Shown: piece after piece, positions 16,791-29,278 of the stretch
How the letters are laid out: each line of letters opens with the position of its first letter
Position numbering within the stretch: position 1 is the first letter of the stretch
NCBI GenBank assembly: GCA_019454105.1
Contig: CP075364.1
Location: 1,181,362 to 1,245,361, forward strand
Length of the DNA: 64,000 nucleotides
Direction of reading: 5' to 3'
From: Fimbriimonadaceae bacterium
GTDB lineage: Bacteria; Armatimonadota; Fimbriimonadia; Fimbriimonadales; Fimbriimonadaceae
The notes under the pieces: generated by a model
Databases searched by the model: none
What the model was told of the DNA's origin: nothing
What the model saw: only the letters and a program-made list of their open reading frames with translations
Made by a program: the position numbers and the translations under genes

Positions 16791-17336
16791 CTAGGGCCGC
16801 TGATAGCGGAACGGGTCGCGACTGAAGTCCCTGAACGGCACCGAAGTGTCGTAGCCACGCATACCCGGGAACACCGGGACGGCGACCGTCTCGCCGGGCA
16901 TGATGTCGTCTCTGAGCTGCATCCGGGCTTCGACAACCGGGACGCGCGCGACGCGCCCGTTCTTATAACCGACGATGAAGTGTCCGCTCGGGTCGACCTC
17001 CCAGGAGTCTCCGCCCACATAGGTGGGGTTCATGCGGACGTAGAGCGAGGAATAGAAGCCGAGCTCGTCGCCCCGCGGGCCTTTGGCAGTGACCGCAAAG
17101 CTGGTGAACTGCGGGCCTCTTTCCGACTTGGACTCGGCGAACTGTTGGTCTGGCAACCGCAACAGCAGGCGGTCGATCCGTGAAGTGTCCCAATCGTTGG
17201 CCTGCAACTGGGCCATAAGGGCCCGTGCCTGCTCCATCGGGTCGTGGGCCGGGGCGGCCCCGTTTTCTCCTGACGCCCGGGCGAAAATGAACGCCGCGCC
17301 GAAAGCCGCGCTCAGAATGATGGCTTGTTTGATCAT
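16791..17336 (-). CDS. Secreted hypothetical protein
   Basis: A 181-residue protein with a signal peptide or anchor (IKQAIILSAAFGAAFIFARASG). The mature part begins with a helical segment (MEQARALMAQLQANDW) followed by a beta-rich domain (FTSFAVTAKGPRGDELGFYSSLYVRMNPTY). It ends near FPGMRGYDTSVPFRDFSRDPFRYQRP. No family is recognised. Shine-Dalgarno AAGGAGACC precedes ATG 17336. It is 22 bp downstream of the Cys-rich gene and on the same strand, so the two are probably one operon. Confidence 0.65.
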   Translation of the reverse strand: MIKQAIILSAAFGAAFIFARASGENGAAPAHDPMEQARALMAQLQANDWDTSRIDRLLLRLPDQQFAESKSERGPQFTSFAVTAKGPRGDELGFYSSLYVRMNPTYVGGDSWEVDPSGHFIVGYKNGRVARVPVVEARMQLRDDIMPGETVAVPVFPGMRGYDTSVPFRDFSRDPFRYQRP

Positions 17337-17358
17337 GTTTGGTCTCCTTGGTTTTCTT

Positions 17359-17757
17359 TCATAAAGATCGGTCTGTCGCTAGTTGTGCTCCCGTAAAGAT
17401 CTTGTCGCCTTCAAAGGTCAATGGATTCCGCAATGTTCGGCGTATTGGCAAGGCCGGGCCGGATCGGCTGGAGTACCGTCGATGGGTGATCAAGGCGCAG
17501 TGAGGTGGCGGTATGTTGTCCCAATCGATACAACGGACAGCGCTGAATGTTTCAACTAACTCGTAGGAGCAACCGGGCTCATATGGCGCGCATCCATCCG
17601 TGGTGCAGCGGACACAACTTGGGGTCCCGTAAGCGCACTCAGGCATCTCGGACTCTCCGCCAGCGAGAAGGCCCCGGCCCGCGCTCGAGTATCCTGCCAT
17701 GGCCCCGAGCAGGACGCTCGCGGAAAACGGCAGAGCCTGTCTCAACACTTTCATCAT
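17359..17757 (-). CDS. Small cysteine-rich exported protein (Cys-D)
   Basis: A 132-residue protein with a signal peptide (MKVLRQALPFSASVLLGAMAGY). A Cys-dense core follows (ECAYGTPSCVRCTTDGCAPY, then PGCSYELVE, VRCIDW, PPPHC), about eight cysteines in 60 residues, with an Arg-rich tail. It is not obviously homologous to Cys-A/B/C further along, but it shares size, export signal and Cys density. ATG 17757 is chosen because TACGAT lies 6 nt upstream; a second ATG follows directly. Upstream lies an AT-rich island. Function unknown. Confidence 0.6.
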   Translation of the reverse strand: MMKVLRQALPFSASVLLGAMAGYSSAGRGLLAGGESEMPECAYGTPSCVRCTTDGCAPYEPGCSYELVETFSAVRCIDWDNIPPPHCALITHRRYSSRSGPALPIRRTLRNPLTFEGDKIFTGAQLATDRSL

Positions 17758-17769
17758 AAAAACATCGTA
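17758..17769 (-). promoter_or_regulatory. -10 element (TACGAT) 6 nt before the Cys-D start
   Basis: On the minus strand TACGAT (17769-17764) is followed by GTTTTT and ATG 17757, the leaderless arrangement. A second promoter may lie in the AT-rich island further upstream. Confidence 0.45.
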
Positions 17770-17805
17770 CAACAGGTTTCGGGTCACAGATCCACTCCCC
17801 CCGTC

Positions 17806-21346: not shown

Positions 21347-21748
21347 TCAAGCCATGGTCAGGCGCATCTTCCGCTCGATCACCTGGGCCGTCAAGCCCGA
21401 GACCAGGCCGATCCCGGCGGCGCCAAGAAGCATGGAGACAATCGTCCAGACGTCGAGGTCTGGGTAGAACGAGAGGCTGAACTTCCAAATCGTTATCGGA
21501 AACACGACGACAGGCAGGGCAAGCACCGCTGTTATTCGAGCTCCATTCTTGCGACGCTTGGGACTCAAGCGATTCCCGAGCAGATAGCCGATTGCGACCG
21601 CCACGAACGACATCCCGAGCATCATCGCCAAGACGGCCGCGCTTTTGGTCATCGCAAGAAAAATGAGACCCACCGGCAAGCCGGATCCCAAGCATGCCCA
21701 CAATTGAGCCCGCCAATCTGTCTCCCGATGGCCCGCTGAGTCCTCCAT
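21347..21748 (-). CDS. Small four-helix membrane protein, cassette copy 2 (Mem-B)
   Basis: A 133-residue integral membrane protein with four hydrophobic segments separated by basic loops. It shares CLxSGLPV, AxGYxLxNRL and GLTAxxxER at matching positions with Mem-A (22673-23089), so the two are duplicates. It starts 3 nt after the prepilin B stop and is the last gene of the cassette. No function is known for either copy; being co-encoded with a prepilin and a Cys-rich protein suggests a role in their handling or in membrane assembly (inference). Confidence 0.65.
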   Translation of the reverse strand: MEDSAGHRETDWRAQLWACLGSGLPVGLIFLAMTKSAAVLAMMLGMSFVAVAIGYLLGNRLSPKRRKNGARITAVLALPVVVFPITIWKFSLSFYPDLDVWTIVSMLLGAAGIGLVSGLTAQVIERKMRLTMA

Positions 21749-21751
21749 GCC

Positions 21752-22450
21752 TTAGTTCCGAACCGAGTCGGAACAGTCTTTTTCCAGCTGCTCGATTGAA
21801 AAGTCGGCGTAGAGCCAGTGAGGGGCAAAGCACCGATGCTCCTCTCGGCTCGTCGTCCTCGTCGTGACGACTTGGAACCGCCTGACGACCACGGCAGAAT
21901 CGTCCAAGAGTCTTCTGTAGGGGCCCTGGCGCAACGCCAAGCGCGGCTCGGGCGACTGAAAGCGACCTTGATCTGTTCCGGCGACGTCGATGAGCCATCC
22001 CGAAGTTCCCGGCGAACCTTTGGAAAGCAACCAGTGCATCCCGACGACGTCCGCTATGCCAACAAAGCTCAACCGATAGTCCTTGGGCGACCGGCGGGGC
22101 TCGCGAAGTCGATCGTAGGCCTGCCTTCGGAATATGTTCGCATACCCTTCGCGCGTCGGGTCGGCAACAGAAGAGCAGAGTTCCTCTCTCACCCTACGCG
22201 CCTCGACGAGCTCGGCGCAACTTTTTACGGCGACTCCAGCCTCGCTGGCATAGACCGCAGCGGCAACCCCGAGTTGTCGCATCCGCTGAAGGTCGTCGCT
22301 TCTCTTGCCTTGAAGAAGTGCGCTGCTGAGTAGTGGCATCAACACCACAACGAGAGCCAGAGCCAAACCCAAGACTAGCAACGTATCAAGGAGCGTCAGA
22401 CCGAGCTCCGGTCGCCTTCGGCCCCACTCCAGGCGCCCTGGAAGGGTCAT
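21752..22450 (-). CDS. Prepilin-like protein, cassette copy 2 (Prepilin-B)
   Basis: A 232-residue protein with a type IV prepilin N-terminus. A 17-residue basic leader ending in G (RRRPELG) is followed by LTLLDTLLVLGLALALVVVLMPLL, with Asp at +5 where Glu is usual. The body is homologous to Prepilin-A: KRSDDLQRMRQLGVAA, EGYANIFRRQ, SGWLIDVAGTDQGRF, RYRRLLDDSAVVVRRFQ. Two Cys pairs are likely (SCAELVEAR, ELCSSVADP). ATG 22450 overlaps the preceding stop as ATGA, which supports this start over the upstream ATG at 22528. Confidence 0.75.
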   Translation of the reverse strand: MTLPGRLEWGRRRPELGLTLLDTLLVLGLALALVVVLMPLLSSALLQGKRSDDLQRMRQLGVAAAVYASEAGVAVKSCAELVEARRVREELCSSVADPTREGYANIFRRQAYDRLREPRRSPKDYRLSFVGIADVVGMHWLLSKGSPGTSGWLIDVAGTDQGRFQSPEPRLALRQGPYRRLLDDSAVVVRRFQVVTTRTTSREEHRCFAPHWLYADFSIEQLEKDCSDSVRN

Positions 22451-22710
22451 GGGTTGCAGTCTCGACTGAAATCGCAAGGATCGGCTCCAGTGTGTTGAAT
22501 GCACCCCCAGATGGGAATGTCCGCACATGTCCTGTACACGTCATTCTCACAATATTCCCAAATGTGCAGGCGGATCCATTCTTCGCCCAAAAGCAGGCAC
22601 GGGAGCGAGACTTTGGTGAAAGTGTCCGGGATCGCGGTGTTGTCGTGGCACGGGCCGCAGGGCGGGGGCCAGCTAGTCCTCTTCCATGTTCGCCCGCTGC
22701 AACCTCTCAA
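22447..22710 (-). pseudogene. Truncated cysteine-rich gene, cassette copy 2 (delta-Cys-B)
   Basis: The reading frame encodes the mature part of a protein clearly related to Cys-A (23807-24211): PPC-x2-C, FTKxSxPC, EW[IL]R[IL]HI, C[DE]N, YRxCADIxIxGCI, PCxFxRxC all align. The signal peptide and N-terminal spacer of Cys-A have no counterpart. The frame runs back into the Mem-A gene, and the only start is a TTG at 22710 inside it. The homology begins right after the Mem-A stop (TAG at 22673-22675). Either the 5' end was deleted or it is translated as a cytosolic remnant. The ATGA overlap with Prepilin-B is kept. Confidence 0.7.
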
Positions 22711-23089
22711 GGACGCGTTCCGCCGTCACTGCTGTCAAACCGAAGAGGCATCCGACTCCAAGGCTGCAGAGTCCGGCCAAGACCGTCGTCTCGACAGGAA
22801 CGTTGCGGAACACGAACACAAACCCCAGACCGATGTATGCGAGAACCGCCAGGGACGGGACCACGAACACTGGCCAGTTCCTCATCCAAGGCGGCCCCAT
22901 AGTCGCTAAGCGATTAACTAACCAATAGCCTGCTGCCACAGAGAAGAAGGCCAGTGCGAGGACGATGAAGAAACCCGAAACTCCTTGCGTCATCCAAGTG
23001 ATCATGACCGCAACCGGAAGGCCGGAAACAAGGCAAACCAACAACCTTGCATTTGTACGTCTCGTAAGCGAGCGCAAGACCATAGGCAT
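22673..23089 (-). CDS. Small four-helix membrane protein, cassette copy 1 (Mem-A)
   Basis: A 138-residue membrane protein homologous to Mem-B. It has four hydrophobic segments, the first being ARLLVCLVSGLPVAVMITW, and ends with a charged tail ERVLERLQRANMEED. ATG 23089 begins 4 nt after the Prepilin-A stop; the longer frame to 23209 would overlap Prepilin-A. Its 3' end abuts the truncated Cys-B reading frame. Function unknown. Confidence 0.65.
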   Translation of the reverse strand: MPMVLRSLTRRTNARLLVCLVSGLPVAVMITWMTQGVSGFFIVLALAFFSVAAGYWLVNRLATMGPPWMRNWPVFVVPSLAVLAYIGLGFVFVFRNVPVETTVLAGLCSLGVGCLFGLTAVTAERVLERLQRANMEED

Positions 23090-23093
23090 CAAG

Positions 23094-23810
23094 TCAAGGA
23101 TCTTGTAGGCCGTATGCCCTGCATTGCTCGTAGATTTCCTCGGTACTAAAGTCTGCGAAGTGCCAACTTGGATTAGAGCATCGCTTTCGAGGAAATCTGT
23201 TTTTGTCAAGCATCACGTGTTGGAACTGCCGAATAACCACAGCCCCATCGTCCAATAGTCTCCTATAACGCCCTTCGCGAAGTTCCAGCATCGGCTCTAC
23301 TCTCTCATACCGACCTTGAGATGAAGGCGACACATCGATGAGCCAGCCAGTACTACCCTCCCGTCCCAGTTCAATGCTCTTTCGAAATGCACCAACGTCG
23401 CTCGGTCCAGCAAAGCTAAGGCGGTATGGAACTGGTTTGAACTGCGTCATTCCAGTTCTAGACGATAATTGTCTTCTAAAGATGTTTGCGAATCCTTCAG
23501 CATTCGGATCTGCGCGCGACGAACAGATCCAAGACTCTACGACTCCTAACTTTATCAGGTCGCTGCAACTCAGCGGTGAATGTTCGCCTTGTTGTGCATA
23601 TTGCACTGCGGCCAATCCGAGTTGTCGCAATCGCTGTAGGTCATCACCTCTCTTGCCCTCTTGCAGTGTTCGGCCCAGAATCGGAGTCACGACCCCAAAG
23701 GCGACGAGGGCAATCGTCAGAACTATCAACAGTTCTATCAAGGACAGTCCATGCAACCGCTGAGACCCAATCAGGCTTTTGCCCCCTAAAACAGCTTTGG
23801 CAGAAGTCAC
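23094..23810 (-). CDS. Prepilin-like protein, cassette copy 1 (Prepilin-A)
   Basis: A 238-residue protein with a classical type IV prepilin signal: leader ending RLHG at residue 21, then LSLIELLIVLTIALVAFG with Glu at +5. A prepilin peptidase would cut after Gly21 and leave the hydrophobic assembly helix. The body holds GKRGDDLQRLRQLGLAAVQYA, EGFANIFRRQ, TGWLIDVSPSSQGRY and RRLLDDGAVVIRQFQ, shared with Prepilin-B, and four cysteines. GTG 23810 makes a GTGA overlap with the Cys-A stop, mirroring copy 2; ATG 23822 is the alternative start. Confidence 0.78.
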   Translation of the reverse strand: MTSAKAVLGGKSLIGSQRLHGLSLIELLIVLTIALVAFGVVTPILGRTLQEGKRGDDLQRLRQLGLAAVQYAQQGEHSPLSCSDLIKLGVVESWICSSRADPNAEGFANIFRRQLSSRTGMTQFKPVPYRLSFAGPSDVGAFRKSIELGREGSTGWLIDVSPSSQGRYERVEPMLELREGRYRRLLDDGAVVIRQFQHVMLDKNRFPRKRCSNPSWHFADFSTEEIYEQCRAYGLQDP

Positions 23811-24211
23811 CAGGGATAGCATGTGCGATCGAAACTGCAAGGTGTCGGTGCCTTCGCGGGAATGCACCCGCCAATCATGATGTCAGCGCAATCCCTGTAG
23901 TAGCCATTGTCGCACAAGCCAATGATGTGGATCCGCAACCACTCTTCTTCCCGCCATGACTGGAACGCGCAAGGAAACGACCACTTTGTGAATGGATCCG
24001 CAAAAAACTCGTTTTCGCAGTTCCAGCAGGGTGGGATGTCGGCTCCCGCGCCGCCGCCACACTGCGTGGCGCAACCAGGAGCCTGCGCGTCAGGTGCGGA
24101 CCCTTTCTTGGGTCGGATCTCGTCGAGGGCGGTGGCACCGAGGGCCATGGCCGAGCCCAGAACCAGGCTCAGGCCGGCGGTCTTCACCTGTCTTATAGCG
24201 CTTGCTCTCAT
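23807..24211 (-). CDS. Small cysteine-rich exported protein, cassette copy 1 (Cys-A)
   Basis: A 134-residue protein with an N-terminal signal peptide (VKTAGLSLVLGSAMALGATA), a polar spacer, and a mature domain with ten cysteines. These lie in GCATQC, PPCWNC, SFPC, GLCDN, YRDCADIMIGGCI, PCSFDRTC, with the framework EEWLRIHI. The pattern is shared with delta-Cys-B. No bacteriocin-modifying enzyme is next to it. The even cysteine count and export signal suggest a disulfide-rich periplasmic or surface domain (inference). It is the first gene of the cassette. A G8 run (24241-24248) lies about 30 bp upstream. Confidence 0.72.
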   Translation of the reverse strand: MRASAIRQVKTAGLSLVLGSAMALGATALDEIRPKKGSAPDAQAPGCATQCGGGAGADIPPCWNCENEFFADPFTKWSFPCAFQSWREEEWLRIHIIGLCDNGYYRDCADIMIGGCIPAKAPTPCSFDRTCYPW

Positions 24212-24424: not shown

Positions 24425-24736
24425 TTAAACGGTCTTGATCTCGATGTCCACGCCGCTCGAGAGGTCGAGCCGCATGAGGGCGTCGATCGTCTTGTTGGTC
24501 GGCTCGTGAATGTCGATCAGCCGGTTGTGGGTGCGGAGCTCGAAGTGCTCCATCGACTCTTTGTCGATGTGCGGGCCGCGGATGACGCAGAACTTGCGGA
24601 TCCGAGTCGGAAGGGGGATTGGGCCAGCGACTCGCGCCCCGGTCCTCTTGGCGGTCTCGGTGATCTTCTCGGCCGACTGGTCGAGGATGCGGTGGTCGTA
24701 CGCGCGCACGCGAATGCGGATTTTCATGCCTGCCAT
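24425..24736 (-). CDS. rpsJ: 30S ribosomal protein S10
   Basis: A 103-residue protein matching S10 (NusE) over its entire length: [65 protein letters not shown]. It assembles into the 30S subunit and also acts with NusB in antitermination. The start ATG 24736 lies 8 nt after an AAAGGA Shine-Dalgarno. Usually rpsJ directly follows tuf; here it lies 5.5 kb beyond the tuf stop on the same strand, with accessory genes in between. Confidence 0.95.
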
Positions 24737-24865: not shown

Positions 24866-25402
24866 TTATCGGCCTGACATTGACCCGGCCAATGCCGTGG
24901 GAACGGGCTCACCGTCCTTGAAGAGCATGACTTTGCCGACCCAAAGAGGGGACAGTGACCGACGCAACTTCGCCTCGGGCGCGACGACGATCCGAGCCTT
25001 GTCCGGCAATTCGAGGTCCCGAGGGTGACCGTCGCCGCCTTCGGCCGCGTAGAGCAGCCACACTTGGTCATATCCTTCGAACGAGGCGTCCTTGAGGTTC
25101 AGGGCACTGGCTGAGCAACTCCCGCATTGGCCAACATAGACGACCAGGACACGGCCCGTGGCAGCCAGCCGATACCCTCGCGCGTCCTCTTCGCCTAACC
25201 CAAGGTCTTTCAAGCGGGTCGAGACATTTGGGTTTGTCTTGAATGCTTCGGCCTTCGTTCGTACCCAGTCTTCCGCCTCTGGCCGAGAGTGATAGGCTGT
25301 GATCAACACGGACACCATCAGTGCCCAAAGCGCAAGGTGGCCCCGCGCCCCGAGACGAGGCCTACGGAACGCCGTAAGTCTTGACGTCACCCATCTTGTC
25401 AA
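24866..25402 (-). CDS. Membrane-anchored thioredoxin-like protein with a CGSC motif
   Basis: A 178-residue protein with one N-terminal transmembrane anchor ([14 protein letters not shown], about 25-38). A soluble domain follows, containing [20 protein letters not shown] (Cys93-Gly-Ser-Cys96), DQVWLLYA and a C-terminal [18 protein letters not shown] strand followed by CxxC at a helix start is the thioredoxin-fold arrangement. The usual cis-proline may be the Pro of ELPDKAR or of LSPLW; I cannot settle this. It lies 18 bp after the gene at 25421-26089 and near Cys-rich exported proteins, so a disulfide-exchange role is plausible (inference). Confidence 0.65.
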
Positions 25403-25420: not shown

Positions 25421-26089
25421 TCAATGCCCGGGCGTGGAAGAGCGGGCACTGACGATGTGCCTGTCCGCCTTGACGAGCAATTCTTCCAAAGGCCGGATCT
25501 GGACAGTCCCGGTCAACTCGTCCGACTTGACGAACGACTTGAAGCCAATGGAATCGAAGAAGGGTTTGTCACGCCGATATCCCTCGGCAAAGCTCATGGC
25601 CAGCGCCTCGCCTCCGAACGCCTGGTTCGATTCGGCCATATGATCCAACATCCATGCGACCCTGACCAAGTCCGACAGGCTGGTCTTGGGCTGGCCTCCG
25701 ACCCGCATGGTGGTGACGCCAAAGCTCACGACTTGCCCCTTCTGGCTGATCAAGTCGGTCATGGCGACGCCTTGCGAGGGTTCCTGAGTCAAGTACTGGG
25801 GTTTGGATTGGACCGGCCCGTACTTTTCGATGGCAGGGCGGACAACAGTCTTTAAGATCATTGAGAGCTTGTCGGCATCGAGATTGTTGGCCTCGATCTC
25901 TTCCTTCCAGACGTAATGCATCAGGCAGCCCCCGTCGGCCTTGAGGATGCACTGATAGGCGTTGTTGGCAGCTTCGTCTAGCCTTTCTGGAGTTCGGCTG
26001 AAATGCCACACCAATCCGATGGTGGCGACGACCATGACCGGAGTTGCAACCCGGAGCCATTTAACGTGCCTTTGAGAAAGTTGTCTCAT
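25421..26089 (-). CDS. Membrane-anchored hypothetical protein
   Basis: A 222-residue protein with one N-terminal membrane helix (VATPVMVVATIGLVWHF, about 14-30) and an extracytoplasmic domain containing AYQCILKADGGCLMHYVW (two cysteines nine residues apart), a central KGQVVSFGVTTMRVGG segment and a helical C-terminus. No family recognised. A GAGG Shine-Dalgarno precedes ATG 26089. It sits between Cys-C and the thioredoxin-like gene with short gaps, so it is probably part of the same operon. Confidence 0.6.
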   Translation of the reverse strand: MRQLSQRHVKWLRVATPVMVVATIGLVWHFSRTPERLDEAANNAYQCILKADGGCLMHYVWKEEIEANNLDADKLSMILKTVVRPAIEKYGPVQSKPQYLTQEPSQGVAMTDLISQKGQVVSFGVTTMRVGGQPKTSLSDLVRVAWMLDHMAESNQAFGGEALAMSFAEGYRRDKPFFDSIGFKSFVKSDELTGTVQIRPLEELLVKADRHIVSARSSTPGH

Positions 26090-26100
26090 CTTAGATCGCC

Positions 26101-26427
26101 TCAGTCAGGAATGATGATGCAGTTGACACCGTTGCAGACGGCACCGAACCTGCTGATTTGTTGGACTTCTCGAATCTTGTTCACGTAGATTCCATAGCAC
26201 ACGTACGTGTTGTCCTGGTAAATGCATTTGCAACAGTCGCTTCCGTTTTGGTAGCAGACGATGTGAACTGGCCCCGACTCGATCAGGCTACACCCAAAAG
26301 TGCTTCCAGGCATACAGCCTCCTATGCTTCCAAACGGGTTTCCTGGGCCACCGAGCCAATTGCAGGGTGGGGCCAATGTTATGGTGGACAATAGGACGGC
26401 AACAGCCGTCGTCAATGTTGTCTTCAT
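26101..26427 (-). CDS. Small cysteine-rich exported protein (Cys-C)
   Basis: A 108-residue protein with a signal peptide (KTTLTTAVAVLLSTITLAPP). The mature part has ten cysteines, including GGCMPGSTFGC, IVCYQNGSDCCKCIYQDN, YVCYG and VCNGVNC. It is Gly-rich after the signal. Cysteine spacing differs from Cys-A/B, so it is a separate family or a very divergent member. ATG 26427 is chosen because GGGAG stands 6 nt upstream. It follows the prepilin C gene by 40 bp and precedes the anchored protein by 11 bp. Function unknown. Confidence 0.62.
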   Translation of the reverse strand: MKTTLTTAVAVLLSTITLAPPCNWLGGPGNPFGSIGGCMPGSTFGCSLIESGPVHIVCYQNGSDCCKCIYQDNTYVCYGIYVNKIREVQQISRFGAVCNGVNCIIIPD

Positions 26428-26467
26428 TATTTTCTCCCTCATTTTCTGTCTTTTGCGTTTGAATCTG

Positions 26468-27055
26468 TCAATGTGAAGGGGGTTCGGAAGGCGGTTTCTC
26501 TGTTTCGAAGATCTCGTTCCGGCTTAAAACACCTTTCGCCCATCGTGTCTGAACTGAACCGTCGTATCTCAGGCCGATCACGCGCCGGAGTCGGAAGAAC
26601 TCAACGGCCGACCCTGCGCCAGCGTTCTGAGTTTCGTCCAGCACATAGACCGGGTTTCCATTCGAGGCGGCCAGCCGCCTCAACCAGTCTTGCAAGCCAA
26701 CCTCGCTCGAGCAAGCAGAACCCGGAATGTAGGTGTAAACATCCTCTCCAGGTTTGCCGCTTCGTGAGGATCCACCAGTTCGAAACATTTCCATGGGGAA
26801 CTTGTAGTGGAACCCTGCGTTGCTCAAGGAGCAAGGAACCTCGACAACAAGCTTAGGTTCGCAGCCGACCTCTTGACAATAGAGCACGTTCGCGGCGTGC
26901 CACTGTTTCAGTTTGCTGATCGAAGCACCGACGCGCGACTGCTCTTTGGATGCGCGCAGGGCGGGAAGGGACAAGGCACCAATGAGCGCGATGATCGCGG
27001 CGACCACAAGAGTTTCGACAAGGGAGAACCCTTTAGCTGGGACTGGGCCGCTCAT
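26468..27055 (-). CDS. Prepilin-like protein (Prepilin-C)
   Basis: A 195-residue protein with a textbook type IV prepilin/pseudopilin N-terminus: short leader PAKG, cleavage after Gly9, then FSLVETLVVAAIIALIGALSL with Glu14 at +5. The body has cysteines at YCQEVGC, VPCSLS and SACSSEVG, and ends with an acidic/proline tail. The segment RLRRVIGLRYDGSVQTRWAKGV resembles the DG-containing C-terminal strand of Prepilin-A/B, where a DDGAVV segment occupies the same place. ATG 27055 overlaps the stop of a possible small gene upstream (ATGA). Confidence 0.75.
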   Translation of the reverse strand: MSGPVPAKGFSLVETLVVAAIIALIGALSLPALRASKEQSRVGASISKLKQWHAANVLYCQEVGCEPKLVVEVPCSLSNAGFHYKFPMEMFRTGGSSRSGKPGEDVYTYIPGSACSSEVGLQDWLRRLAASNGNPVYVLDETQNAGAGSAVEFFRLRRVIGLRYDGSVQTRWAKGVLSRNEIFETEKPPSEPPSH

Positions 27056-27531: not shown

Positions 27532-29169
27532 TCACGGCTCGTCGCCGACGGGATTCTCGTTGCGCCACTTCGGCCCGACGGTCAGCTCGGGTTTCCCATA
27601 GTTGAAGCTCTTGGGGATCTCGAACGGTCCGAGAGCCTGCAGACCGTCAAAGTCGGTGAACTTGCGGTCCCCCCCGAGGCCGAACGTGTAGATCCGGTTC
27701 GCGTCGTCTTGAACAAAGACTGTCCCCTGAGGGCCGGGAATCACTTCACGGATCGTTCGTCCAAGATTGGCGGTCACCCTCTTGCCCATGCGGACCGAGG
27801 ATCCCCCGGGGTAGCGGTTCCATGAACGGGTTCCGCGCACGGCGACGTAATAGTCTCCAGTATCGCTGTCGACTCTGAAGACCCCTTCCCCGGTCGCGAT
27901 CTTGGACAGAGGAGCGATCGGAGCCAGATCGACCAGCCTCACCCGCTTGCTGACTGCGAAATCTGGGTCGAAGGCGGTCGCGGTGGCGAGATCGCTGTCA
28001 AGCGCGACGACGCCACCGGTCTTTTCGTCCACATCGATCGCGGCTGCTTTGCCAGGGAGCTGCCGGATCTCCGGTCTTCCTCCCTCTCGGGCAATTCTTG
28101 CGACCGAGTCAAAGTTCTGACCTTCTAAGAGGACGTATACGGATTGGTCAGGCCCTCCGACCGCGACTTGCCGGGCGGCTGAGGCGTTATAGAGGCGTAC
28201 CGAAGTTTCGGTCACCACGTCGATCTTGTCGACCGCTCCCGTTGGCGACAACGAAACCAGTCCGAAGTCGGCTGGGTCGAAGCACCAATCGCGGACGTCC
28301 GAGGGAGGCGTGACCGAGTAGGTTTGTGGAGGAAGACTCCCGACCGGCCCCGGCATATAAGGGATCCTCACAGTGAAAGTGTCGCGGTCACCGGAGGGAC
28401 TGCTCCATCCAACGTACGTCGGATGAAAGACCATCATGCGGTCAATGAGGTACCTGCGGTCGCCGTTCGGACCCGTTTTGAAGGAATACCGGGCGTGCGT
28501 GACCGGGGTCACCTGACCCAAAATGTGCAAAGTCAGGTTCGCGGTGGCGACCGTCTTATAGATGAAAGGACTTTGAACGGAATTGTCGCCGTCGTCCTGT
28601 GCCGGATCCGCCATGTAAAGCTTGTCTTGCAACGTTTGGCTGTCACGCCTGTCGTAGCCCATGAGGGTCAGACAATGCCCCCCGTCCCTGTCCCACATGT
28701 CGCCGAACGGCTTGTAGCGCCCGTAGCAAAGTTGAACCAAGGCGCCCGCCCGGAACTTGTTCATGATCGTCTTGTAGCCCCAGTTGGAGGACGGCCCATA
28801 GTCACCGAAGAAGATGAGTTTGTTGGTCAGGGCGCCCACATATTCGAACTCCTTGCTGGCGGCGCCCGATGTACCGTCTTCTGGGTCGGTGTCGAGCAAG
28901 ATTCCCAAATAGCTGATGAAAGACGTCATCTGGGCGTGACTGGCCGGGTCGAATCCGAGCAACATTTGCGAATTGCCATACTTACGGAGATAAGCGAGGA
29001 CGTTCGCGAAGGATGTCGGCACACAGTACATGTTCCCCCCGCCGGGCAGTCCGCCCCGTCGCTGGTCAAAGTCGTAAGTGTCGAGACGGAAACGGCCCTC
29101 GTCAAGCCCATGAGAGAGCGTCGCGACCAAGAGGGCTGTCAAAGATGTGAGGGCTTTGTGCGGGGCCAT
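27532..29169 (-). CDS. Secreted C39-like peptidase-domain protein with a propeller-like C-terminus
   Basis: A 545-residue exported protein with signal peptide (ALTSLTALLVATLSHG). The N-terminal domain (about 30-260) resembles the papain-fold C39-like family: GGNMYCVPTSFANVLAYL gives the candidate nucleophile Cys49, and DGGHCLTLMGYD gives the candidate His165. This is a stand-alone extracellular domain, without the ABC transporter found in bacteriocin C39 exporters. The C-terminal half consists of repeats of about 45 residues (VYVLLEGQNFDSVARIAREGG, GGVVALDSDLATATAF, TVFVQDDANRIYTFG), probably a beta-propeller. ATG 29169 has a strong promoter upstream and an AGGAG in the 7-nt spacer. It is divergent from an AraC regulator. 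Confidence 0.65.
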   Translation of the reverse strand: MAPHKALTSLTALLVATLSHGLDEGRFRLDTYDFDQRRGGLPGGGNMYCVPTSFANVLAYLRKYGNSQMLLGFDPASHAQMTSFISYLGILLDTDPEDGTSGAASKEFEYVGALTNKLIFFGDYGPSSNWGYKTIMNKFRAGALVQLCYGRYKPFGDMWDRDGGHCLTLMGYDRRDSQTLQDKLYMADPAQDDGDNSVQSPFIYKTVATANLTLHILGQVTPVTHARYSFKTGPNGDRRYLIDRMMVFHPTYVGWSSPSGDRDTFTVRIPYMPGPVGSLPPQTYSVTPPSDVRDWCFDPADFGLVSLSPTGAVDKIDVVTETSVRLYNASAARQVAVGGPDQSVYVLLEGQNFDSVARIAREGGRPEIRQLPGKAAAIDVDEKTGGVVALDSDLATATAFDPDFAVSKRVRLVDLAPIAPLSKIATGEGVFRVDSDTGDYYVAVRGTRSWNRYPGGSSVRMGKRVTANLGRTIREVIPGPQGTVFVQDDANRIYTFGLGGDRKFTDFDGLQALGPFEIPKSFNYGKPELTVGPKWRNENPVGDEP

Positions 29170-29205
29170 GGCTCCTATTGTACGGACCTGTACCGTGACT
29201 GCGAA
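29170..29205 (-). promoter_or_regulatory. Promoter of the C39-like gene
   Basis: Minus strand: TTCGCA (29205-29200), 17-bp spacer, TACAAT (29182-29177), then seven bases (AGGAGCC) and ATG 29169. The short interval serves both as a near-leaderless 5' end and as a possible ribosome-binding site. Confidence 0.6.
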
Positions 29206-29278
29206 ACACTTGTGACTCTTAGAGGGGATCAATGACGGTTAACGTGGATTCATGAGCATAATATGGGATTCCTTTCAT

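Follow-up and report, generated by a model that had tools for sequence, protein, structure and literature searches.

In Vibrio cholerae, the minor pilin TcpB binds TcpF, a soluble protein of the same operon, and exports it with the pilus (PMC9565799). The minor pilin CofB is likewise an adapter for CofJ (PMC8179133). Some effectors of the type II secretion system (T2SS) are encoded beside the gene for their own membrane chaperone, as in the pairs LipA-LipB and CpaA-CpaB (PMC4713064). Here we investigate gene cassettes from a bacterium of the Fimbriimonadaceae (Armatimonadota), each of which encodes a cysteine-rich protein (Cys), a prepilin (Pil) and a membrane protein (Mem). The window, by which we mean the whole stretch of DNA that was analysed, is 64,000 nucleotides (nt) long (assembly GCA_019454105.1, contig CP075364.1, positions 1,181,362 to 1,245,361 of the forward strand). 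It holds two such cassettes in tandem and a third of another architecture. That the three genes of a cassette are one functional unit is well supported.

In TcpB-TcpF and CofB-CofJ a minor pilin is encoded together with a soluble protein that it exports or presents; in the cassettes a prepilin likewise accompanies a protein whose export is judged from its signal-peptide-like N-terminus. However, those pairs lie inside a complete pilus operon, whereas the cassettes add only a membrane protein to the pair, occur in many copies and have no machine genes nearby. The exported protein of the cassettes is also small and Cys-rich, and the likeness lies in gene arrangement. LipA-LipB and CpaA-CpaB resemble the cassettes in placing a secreted protein beside its own membrane-anchored partner, but include no prepilin. 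In modular pilins, such as PilB of Streptococcus sanguinis (PMC8179133), the functional module that the pilin presents is fused to it; in the cassettes it would be a separate exported protein from the adjoining gene.

Two further groups of prepilins were compared by sequence. The H-X9-DG / DUF1559 and PulG-like prepilins share with the cassette prepilins the N-terminal helix and, close to the end, a DG[SA]V turn, yet PF07596 is matched by only 1 of 19 cassette prepilins, at an expectation value (E) of 0.31. The Verru_Chthon families (TIGR02596, TIGR02599), as their names suggest, belong to gene cassettes with prepilin-like members; we know of no Cys-rich partner in them. Their matches to the cassette prepilins are weak and N-terminal (9 of 19 members, best E 3.4e-5), with 18.5 bits for the window prepilin Pil3 against TIGR02596 (cut-off 70), and the curated NCBIfam cut-offs were not reached. 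A literature search found nothing on Verru_Chthon cassettes, and its only H-X9-DG match was unrelated. We found no described system like the cassettes, and plug-in export or display of disulfide-rich proteins looks undescribed.

Tandem cassettes of the window

A first-pass annotation, made from the letters of the window, had described six minus-strand open reading frames (ORFs) in two tandem trios, with the second Cys gene truncated. All are present as described (Table 1). Each A/B pair is homologous, as had been claimed: searches with copy A retrieve copy B at E 8e-57 for Pil, 1e-15 for Cys and 7e-9 for Mem, and identities are 45%, 49% (86 aligned residues) and 35%, respectively. The junctions that it gave were also found, with stop/start overlaps of 4 nt between CysA and PilA (GTGA, 23807-23810) and between CysB and PilB (ATGA, 22447-22450), and with MemA and MemB starting 4 and 3 nt after the prepilin stop. 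The duplication is old, because synonymous and amino-acid differences are both large. Proportions of nonsynonymous differences (pN 0.39-0.44) are well under those of synonymous differences (pS 0.66-0.73) in all three genes; judged by these values, the copies have diverged under constraint in all of them.

Table 1. Cassette genes of the window, further cassettes of the genome, and other genes near the window cassettes
Feature	Location	Coordinates	Strand	Description
CysA	window	23807-24211	minus	exported Cys-rich protein, 134 amino acids (aa), 10 Cys, ATG at 24211
PilA	window	23094-23810	minus	prepilin, 238 aa, class III leader ..RLHG/LSLIE (G-1, E+5)
MemA	window	22673-23089	minus	membrane protein, 138 aa, 4 predicted transmembrane (TM) helices
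CysB	window	22447-22710	minus	5'-truncated Cys-rich copy, 87 aa, 9 Cys in longest ORF
PilB	window	21752-22450	minus	prepilin, 232 aa, leader ..RPELG/LTLLD, ATG start
MemB	window	21347-21748	minus	membrane protein, 133 aa, 3-4 predicted TM helices
Pil3 (type III gene 1)	window	26468-27055	minus	prepilin, 195 aa, GFSLVE; N_methyl 22.5 bits, above cut-off
Cys3 (type III gene 2)	window	26101-26442	minus	exported Cys-rich protein, 113 aa, 10 Cys, CCxC motif
Type III gene 3	window	25421-26089	minus	membrane protein, 222 aa, one N-terminal TM helix and external domain
Type I trio	L026	5811-7242		Cys-Pil-Mem
Type I trio	L027	6187-7593		Cys-Pil-Mem
Type I trio	L028	5002-6411		Cys-Pil-Mem
Type II trio	L028	11207-12784		Cys-Mem-Pil
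Type II trio	L029	5502-7025		Cys-Mem-Pil
rpsJ	window	24425-24736		between the type I cassettes and the type III set
Thioredoxin-like gene	window	24866-25402	minus	178 aa, membrane-anchored, CGSC motif, weak UGSC match
Two-gene set	window	16791-17787	minus	exported Cys-rich protein (142 aa, 7 Cys), then 181 aa exported or membrane-anchored protein
Exported protein gene	window	27532-29232	minus	566 aa, N-terminal half weakly Peptidase_C39-like (PF13529, below cut-off)

CysA begins with a signal-peptide-like stretch and has a C-terminal Cx5C, ending CSFDRTCYPW. CysB lacks a signal peptide, its 5' end having been lost at the junction. No in-frame ATG or GTG precedes its Cys-rich part, and the sole standard start is a TTG within the end of MemA. 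PilA, which has a GTG start, carries a domain of about 170 residues after the leader, with a DGAVV motif at its end, and scores 19.6 bits against N_methyl, slightly below the Pfam cut-off of 21.2.

The Cys proteins are about 110-160 residues long and have a signal-peptide-like N-terminus, a variable linker, and then about eight cysteines (8-10) in a common spacing that includes a C.NG.YY core; at the C-terminus CP..[ST]C.P is usual. Nothing was above cut-off for them in Pfam. The window Cys and Mem copies found nothing above the Pfam or NCBIfam cut-offs and nothing convincing in PHROGs or PADLOC. A search of solved structures with the Cys profile returned octaheme nitrite reductase alone, at E of about 3, which was taken as noise from Cys composition. 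In type I Cys proteins the signal peptide is often followed by a short motif of two hydrophobic residues and Asp (residues 17-46; 11 of 20, versus 4.1 in shuffled sequences). It could be a docking hook, though as a motif picked after inspection it is a lead only.

The cassette prepilins combine a canonical leader with a domain whose end is frequently the DG[SA]V turn. N_methyl is matched by 17 of 19, and their profile matches solved type IV pilins (best E 1.5e-10). They carry the leader of type IV filament prepilins, with G or A at -1, E at +5 and a hydrophobic helix, from which PilB deviates. The four-TM protein was considered as the peptidase for this leader and rejected, since MemA shows neither a GxGD motif nor a membrane Asp. 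The first-pass annotation had held that its idea would fail if the parts were known families of unrelated function. None was so identified, the prepilin being recognisable solely by its N-terminal helix. In one further locus (L087 3130-3813, minus strand) the longest ORF is a prepilin with 10 Cys, possibly cargo and pilin in one protein.

Recurrence of the trio

The genome is a single contig of 2,741,041 bases (2.74 Mb). Loci were read as stretches around profile or search matches. Simple script rules or inspection by eye served to call TM helices, signal peptides and Cys-rich ORFs; many gene starts are uncertain. Prepilin-like sequences are common in the genome, with 37 matches to PilA, five of which cover most of the PilA domain. 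All five long matches lie in trios of the order Cys-Pil-Mem (type I), namely the two window copies and those in L026, L027 and L028. Type I trios adjoin unrelated housekeeping genes: rpsJ, rlmN with lipoamide dehydrogenase, secA, and flhA (named by eye). A phage origin was rejected on these neighbours, together with the lack of any CysA match in phage records and of any PilA relative in viral contigs.

Are the three genes also found together elsewhere? This was the condition that the first-pass annotation had set for a dedicated system, and through family profiles the trio was found in many genomes. A Cys profile built on these five trios retrieved genome G009 and four places in G029, every one a trio. 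With extended Cys profiles, matches rose to 11 and later to 18 of the 113 class genomes, the 18 falling in 11 of 47 genera; one of them (G040, L105) belongs to a different family within the order. The single-contig 5.2 Mb genome G062 carries one type I cassette. A ten-sequence Cys profile run over 291 genomes of the phylum had matches confined to the window's own family. The prepilin-domain profile, with the N-terminal helix left out, matched 29 of the 113 class genomes, in 15 genera. PilA as a lone query found no match in a contig search; the same kind of search with an ACE_ARM prepilin found relatives that include ACE_ARM8 (CP075366.1) and ACE_ARM7, both Fimbriimonadaceae.

In nearly all the Cys loci that were read, the Cys gene forms a trio with a prepilin gene and a gene for 3-4 TM helices. 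The exceptions are L051, where the contig ends within the prepilin, L106, where no membrane gene was found in the stretch read, and L101 (G104), where the Cys gene near 1501 has an in-frame stop beside an intact prepilin and membrane gene, seemingly a cassette losing its cargo. A second order, Cys-Mem-Pil (type II), occurs twice in this genome and in L058, L102, L103, L104, L105 and L142.

A third architecture

The first-pass annotation overlooked a third set of prepilin, Cys-rich protein and membrane protein at 25421-27055, upstream of the tandem cassettes and beyond rpsJ and the thioredoxin-like gene. Its order is Pil-Cys-TM (type III). Relatives of gene 3 are found in 35 of the 113 class genomes, in 22 genera and two families. 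Among the 20 gene 3 loci read, the window's own included, a prepilin is upstream in 17 and the order Pil-Cys-gene 3 is kept in 14. The external domain of gene 3 had no convincing match in Pfam or the PDB. With its N-terminal TM helix and external domain the protein has the layout of a T2SS chaperone; the type I and II partner, with four TM helices, does not. The theme of prepilin, exported Cys-rich protein and membrane protein therefore exists with two apparently unrelated kinds of membrane partner, single-TM in type III and four-TM in types I and II. A prepilin remnant, a Cys-rich protein and a seeming relative of the single-TM protein in L077 (3360-4807, plus strand) are probably a decaying type III cassette.

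Company and co-inheritance of the genes

The association was also approached from the prepilin. A fixed rule scored a Cys-rich ORF and a 3-5 TM ORF near 26 prepilin-family loci and near 26 ordinary prepilins of this genome. A Cys-rich ORF was scored in 20 of the former and 2 of the latter (Fisher p 3e-7), a TM ORF in 22 and 1 (p 1e-9), and both in 18 and none (p 4e-8), p values that overstate independence because the loci are related to one another. The ordinary prepilins are thus without cassette partners. The rule erred in L125, L130 and L139, where it counted as Cys-rich an ORF other than the upstream Cys gene, and in L130 and L133, where the membrane gene was missed.

Between ACE_ARM8 and ACE_ARM7 the ratio of nonsynonymous to synonymous substitution rates (dN/dS, NG86) is 0.07 for Cys, 0.05 for Pil and 0.05 for Mem, for which dS is high (1.3). 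For neighbours in the same genome pair it is 0.06 (GlgA) and 0.04 (a gene with an EVE domain). On these estimates all three cassette genes are under purifying selection. The distance matrices of 20 type I cassettes are correlated (Mantel r 0.59 for Cys-Pil, 0.42 for Cys-Mem and 0.41 for Pil-Mem; p 2e-4 for Cys-Pil and Pil-Mem), and by this measure the parts of the cassette are inherited together. The 40 junctions listed are mostly overlaps or gaps of less than 20 nt, several of the start codons being uncertain.

The proposal of the first-pass annotation that the three products act together is supported by this constant company, the tight junctions, the co-inheritance and the selection. Could unrelated small genes instead have become adjacent by chance and been copied by local tandem duplication? 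The duplication in the window is real, but the constant trio in many genera, the three architectures, the count of 18/26 versus 0/26 and the co-inheritance already contradict this explanation, which is barely credible.

A second alternative accepts the unit and gives it another purpose. The Cys-rich protein would be antibacterial, the prepilin would deliver it, and the small membrane protein would confer immunity. The patchy distribution, the many diverged paralogues and the near-constant presence of a small multi-TM partner are what such a system might show. Orthologous cassettes are slow-evolving, however, with dN/dS of 0.05-0.07 like that of housekeeping neighbours, the window copies have no convincing PADLOC or PHROG match, and in type III the partner has a single TM helix and a large external domain. 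We consider a toxin-immunity role improbable.

A proposed mechanism with a shared machine

Prepilins are normally grouped with pilus or secretion genes, and the first-pass annotation had stated that none is present here. This is true locally: no ATPase, platform, secretin or peptidase gene adjoins those cassettes whose surroundings were read, whereas complete type IV pilus, T2SS or Com operons encode the machine with the pilins. It does not extend to the genome, which has PilT, PilC and PilD (L069) and two secretins away from the cassettes, or to the window, which holds the third prepilin cassette. The assembly genes and peptidase that type IV filament prepilins need are thus present at the level of the genome. 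A VKOR oxidase is also encoded away from the cassettes. In Fimbriimonas ginsengisoli, T2SS genes number 21 and PulG-like genes 79 (PMC4072686). A reassignment of T2SS to Armatimonadetes has been published (PMC6668835).

We put at about even the chance that each cassette is a substrate-specific add-on to a shared type II secretion or type IV filament machine, supplying a cargo, its own minor pseudopilin and its own membrane escort. This assignment of roles is favoured because the cassettes unite the precedents of minor-pilin export and of the membrane chaperone without any machine gene. By analogy with those minor pilins, we infer that the role of the prepilin is to present or secrete the Cys-rich protein. 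The Cys protein would cross the inner membrane by Sec and fold with disulfides in the envelope, as its signal-peptide-like N-terminus, its 8-10 cysteines and the genomic VKOR suggest. The prepilin, cut by the PilD of the genome, would be a dedicated minor pseudopilin that binds its own Cys protein and carries it into a filament built by the shared assembly genes, a step suggested by the leader peptide and the machine genes. Before assembly, the membrane protein (with four TM helices in types I and II, and in type III with one and an external domain) may hold or escort cargo and pilin. The Cys protein would then be pushed through a secretin and released, or be retained at the filament tip as a surface ligand. 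Different cassettes would in this way yield different surface or secreted disulfide-rich proteins.

Display might also be the only function. The Cys-rich protein would then remain on the filament as a small adhesin or as a tip that binds a ligand, the four-TM protein would be an assembly factor, and the cassettes would be alternative tips for the same pilus. This rests on the same genomic facts of distribution, reverse test and co-inheritance. A soluble tip protein with a minor-pilin adapter has a precedent in CofB-CofJ (PMC8179133), and a part in attachment has been suggested for the pili of F. ginsengisoli (PMC4072686). Yet no adhesion fold was recognised in the Cys proteins, and no major pilin or PilY1-like gene was seen in the cassettes. 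We regard display without secretion as rather unlikely.

The cysteines admit one more explanation, in which the Cys-rich protein remains in the envelope for metal binding or redox sensing and the other two proteins are anchors or signal partners. In L052 (1972-3102, plus strand) a VKOR-DsbA fusion is divergent from, and directly beside, a type I cassette, a possible link to disulfide formation. This gene, the thioredoxin-like gene near the window cassettes and the high Cys content are in keeping with such a role. The Cys proteins had no match to a metal-site family above chance, however, oxidoreductase neighbours are not recurrent, and a cleavable prepilin leader makes little sense in a plain anchor. 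An envelope sensor seems to us slightly more improbable still than a toxin.

Several observations weigh against the add-on reading itself. By the fixed rule about a quarter of prepilin-family loci are without a Cys gene. The Mem proteins are alike in length and four-helix topology more than in sequence. PilB carries Asp, not Glu, at +5, and copy B may be without a working cargo because CysB lacks a signal peptide. AlphaFold2 models of CysA and PilA from four-sequence alignments are poor (mean predicted local distance difference test score, pLDDT, of 42-43), probably as a result of the shallow alignments.

Other genes of the window

The thioredoxin-like gene lies between rpsJ and the type III cassette. 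The two-gene set with an exported Cys-rich protein at 16791-17787 adjoins glnS and has no prepilin. The exported protein with the weak Peptidase_C39 likeness is encoded beyond Pil3.

Conclusions

The cassettes may be parts of a plug-in secretion or display scheme of the Fimbriimonadales, with many dispersed cassettes, each with one disulfide-rich cargo, a cargo-specific pseudopilin and an escort, that serve one shared machine. The three architectures (Cys-Pil-Mem, Cys-Mem-Pil and Pil-Cys-TM) would be its versions, with about eight cassettes in this genome. We advance this wider scheme tentatively, at somewhat less than even chances.

How type II and type IV filament machines select their cargo is a long-standing open question. 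If the scheme is true, many sets of cargo, pilin and escort on one machine would provide matched and mismatched pairs for direct tests of specificity. An exported Cys-rich family with no database match is now defined, and the cassettes hint at what some members of the large, unexplained prepilin expansions of Armatimonadota may do.

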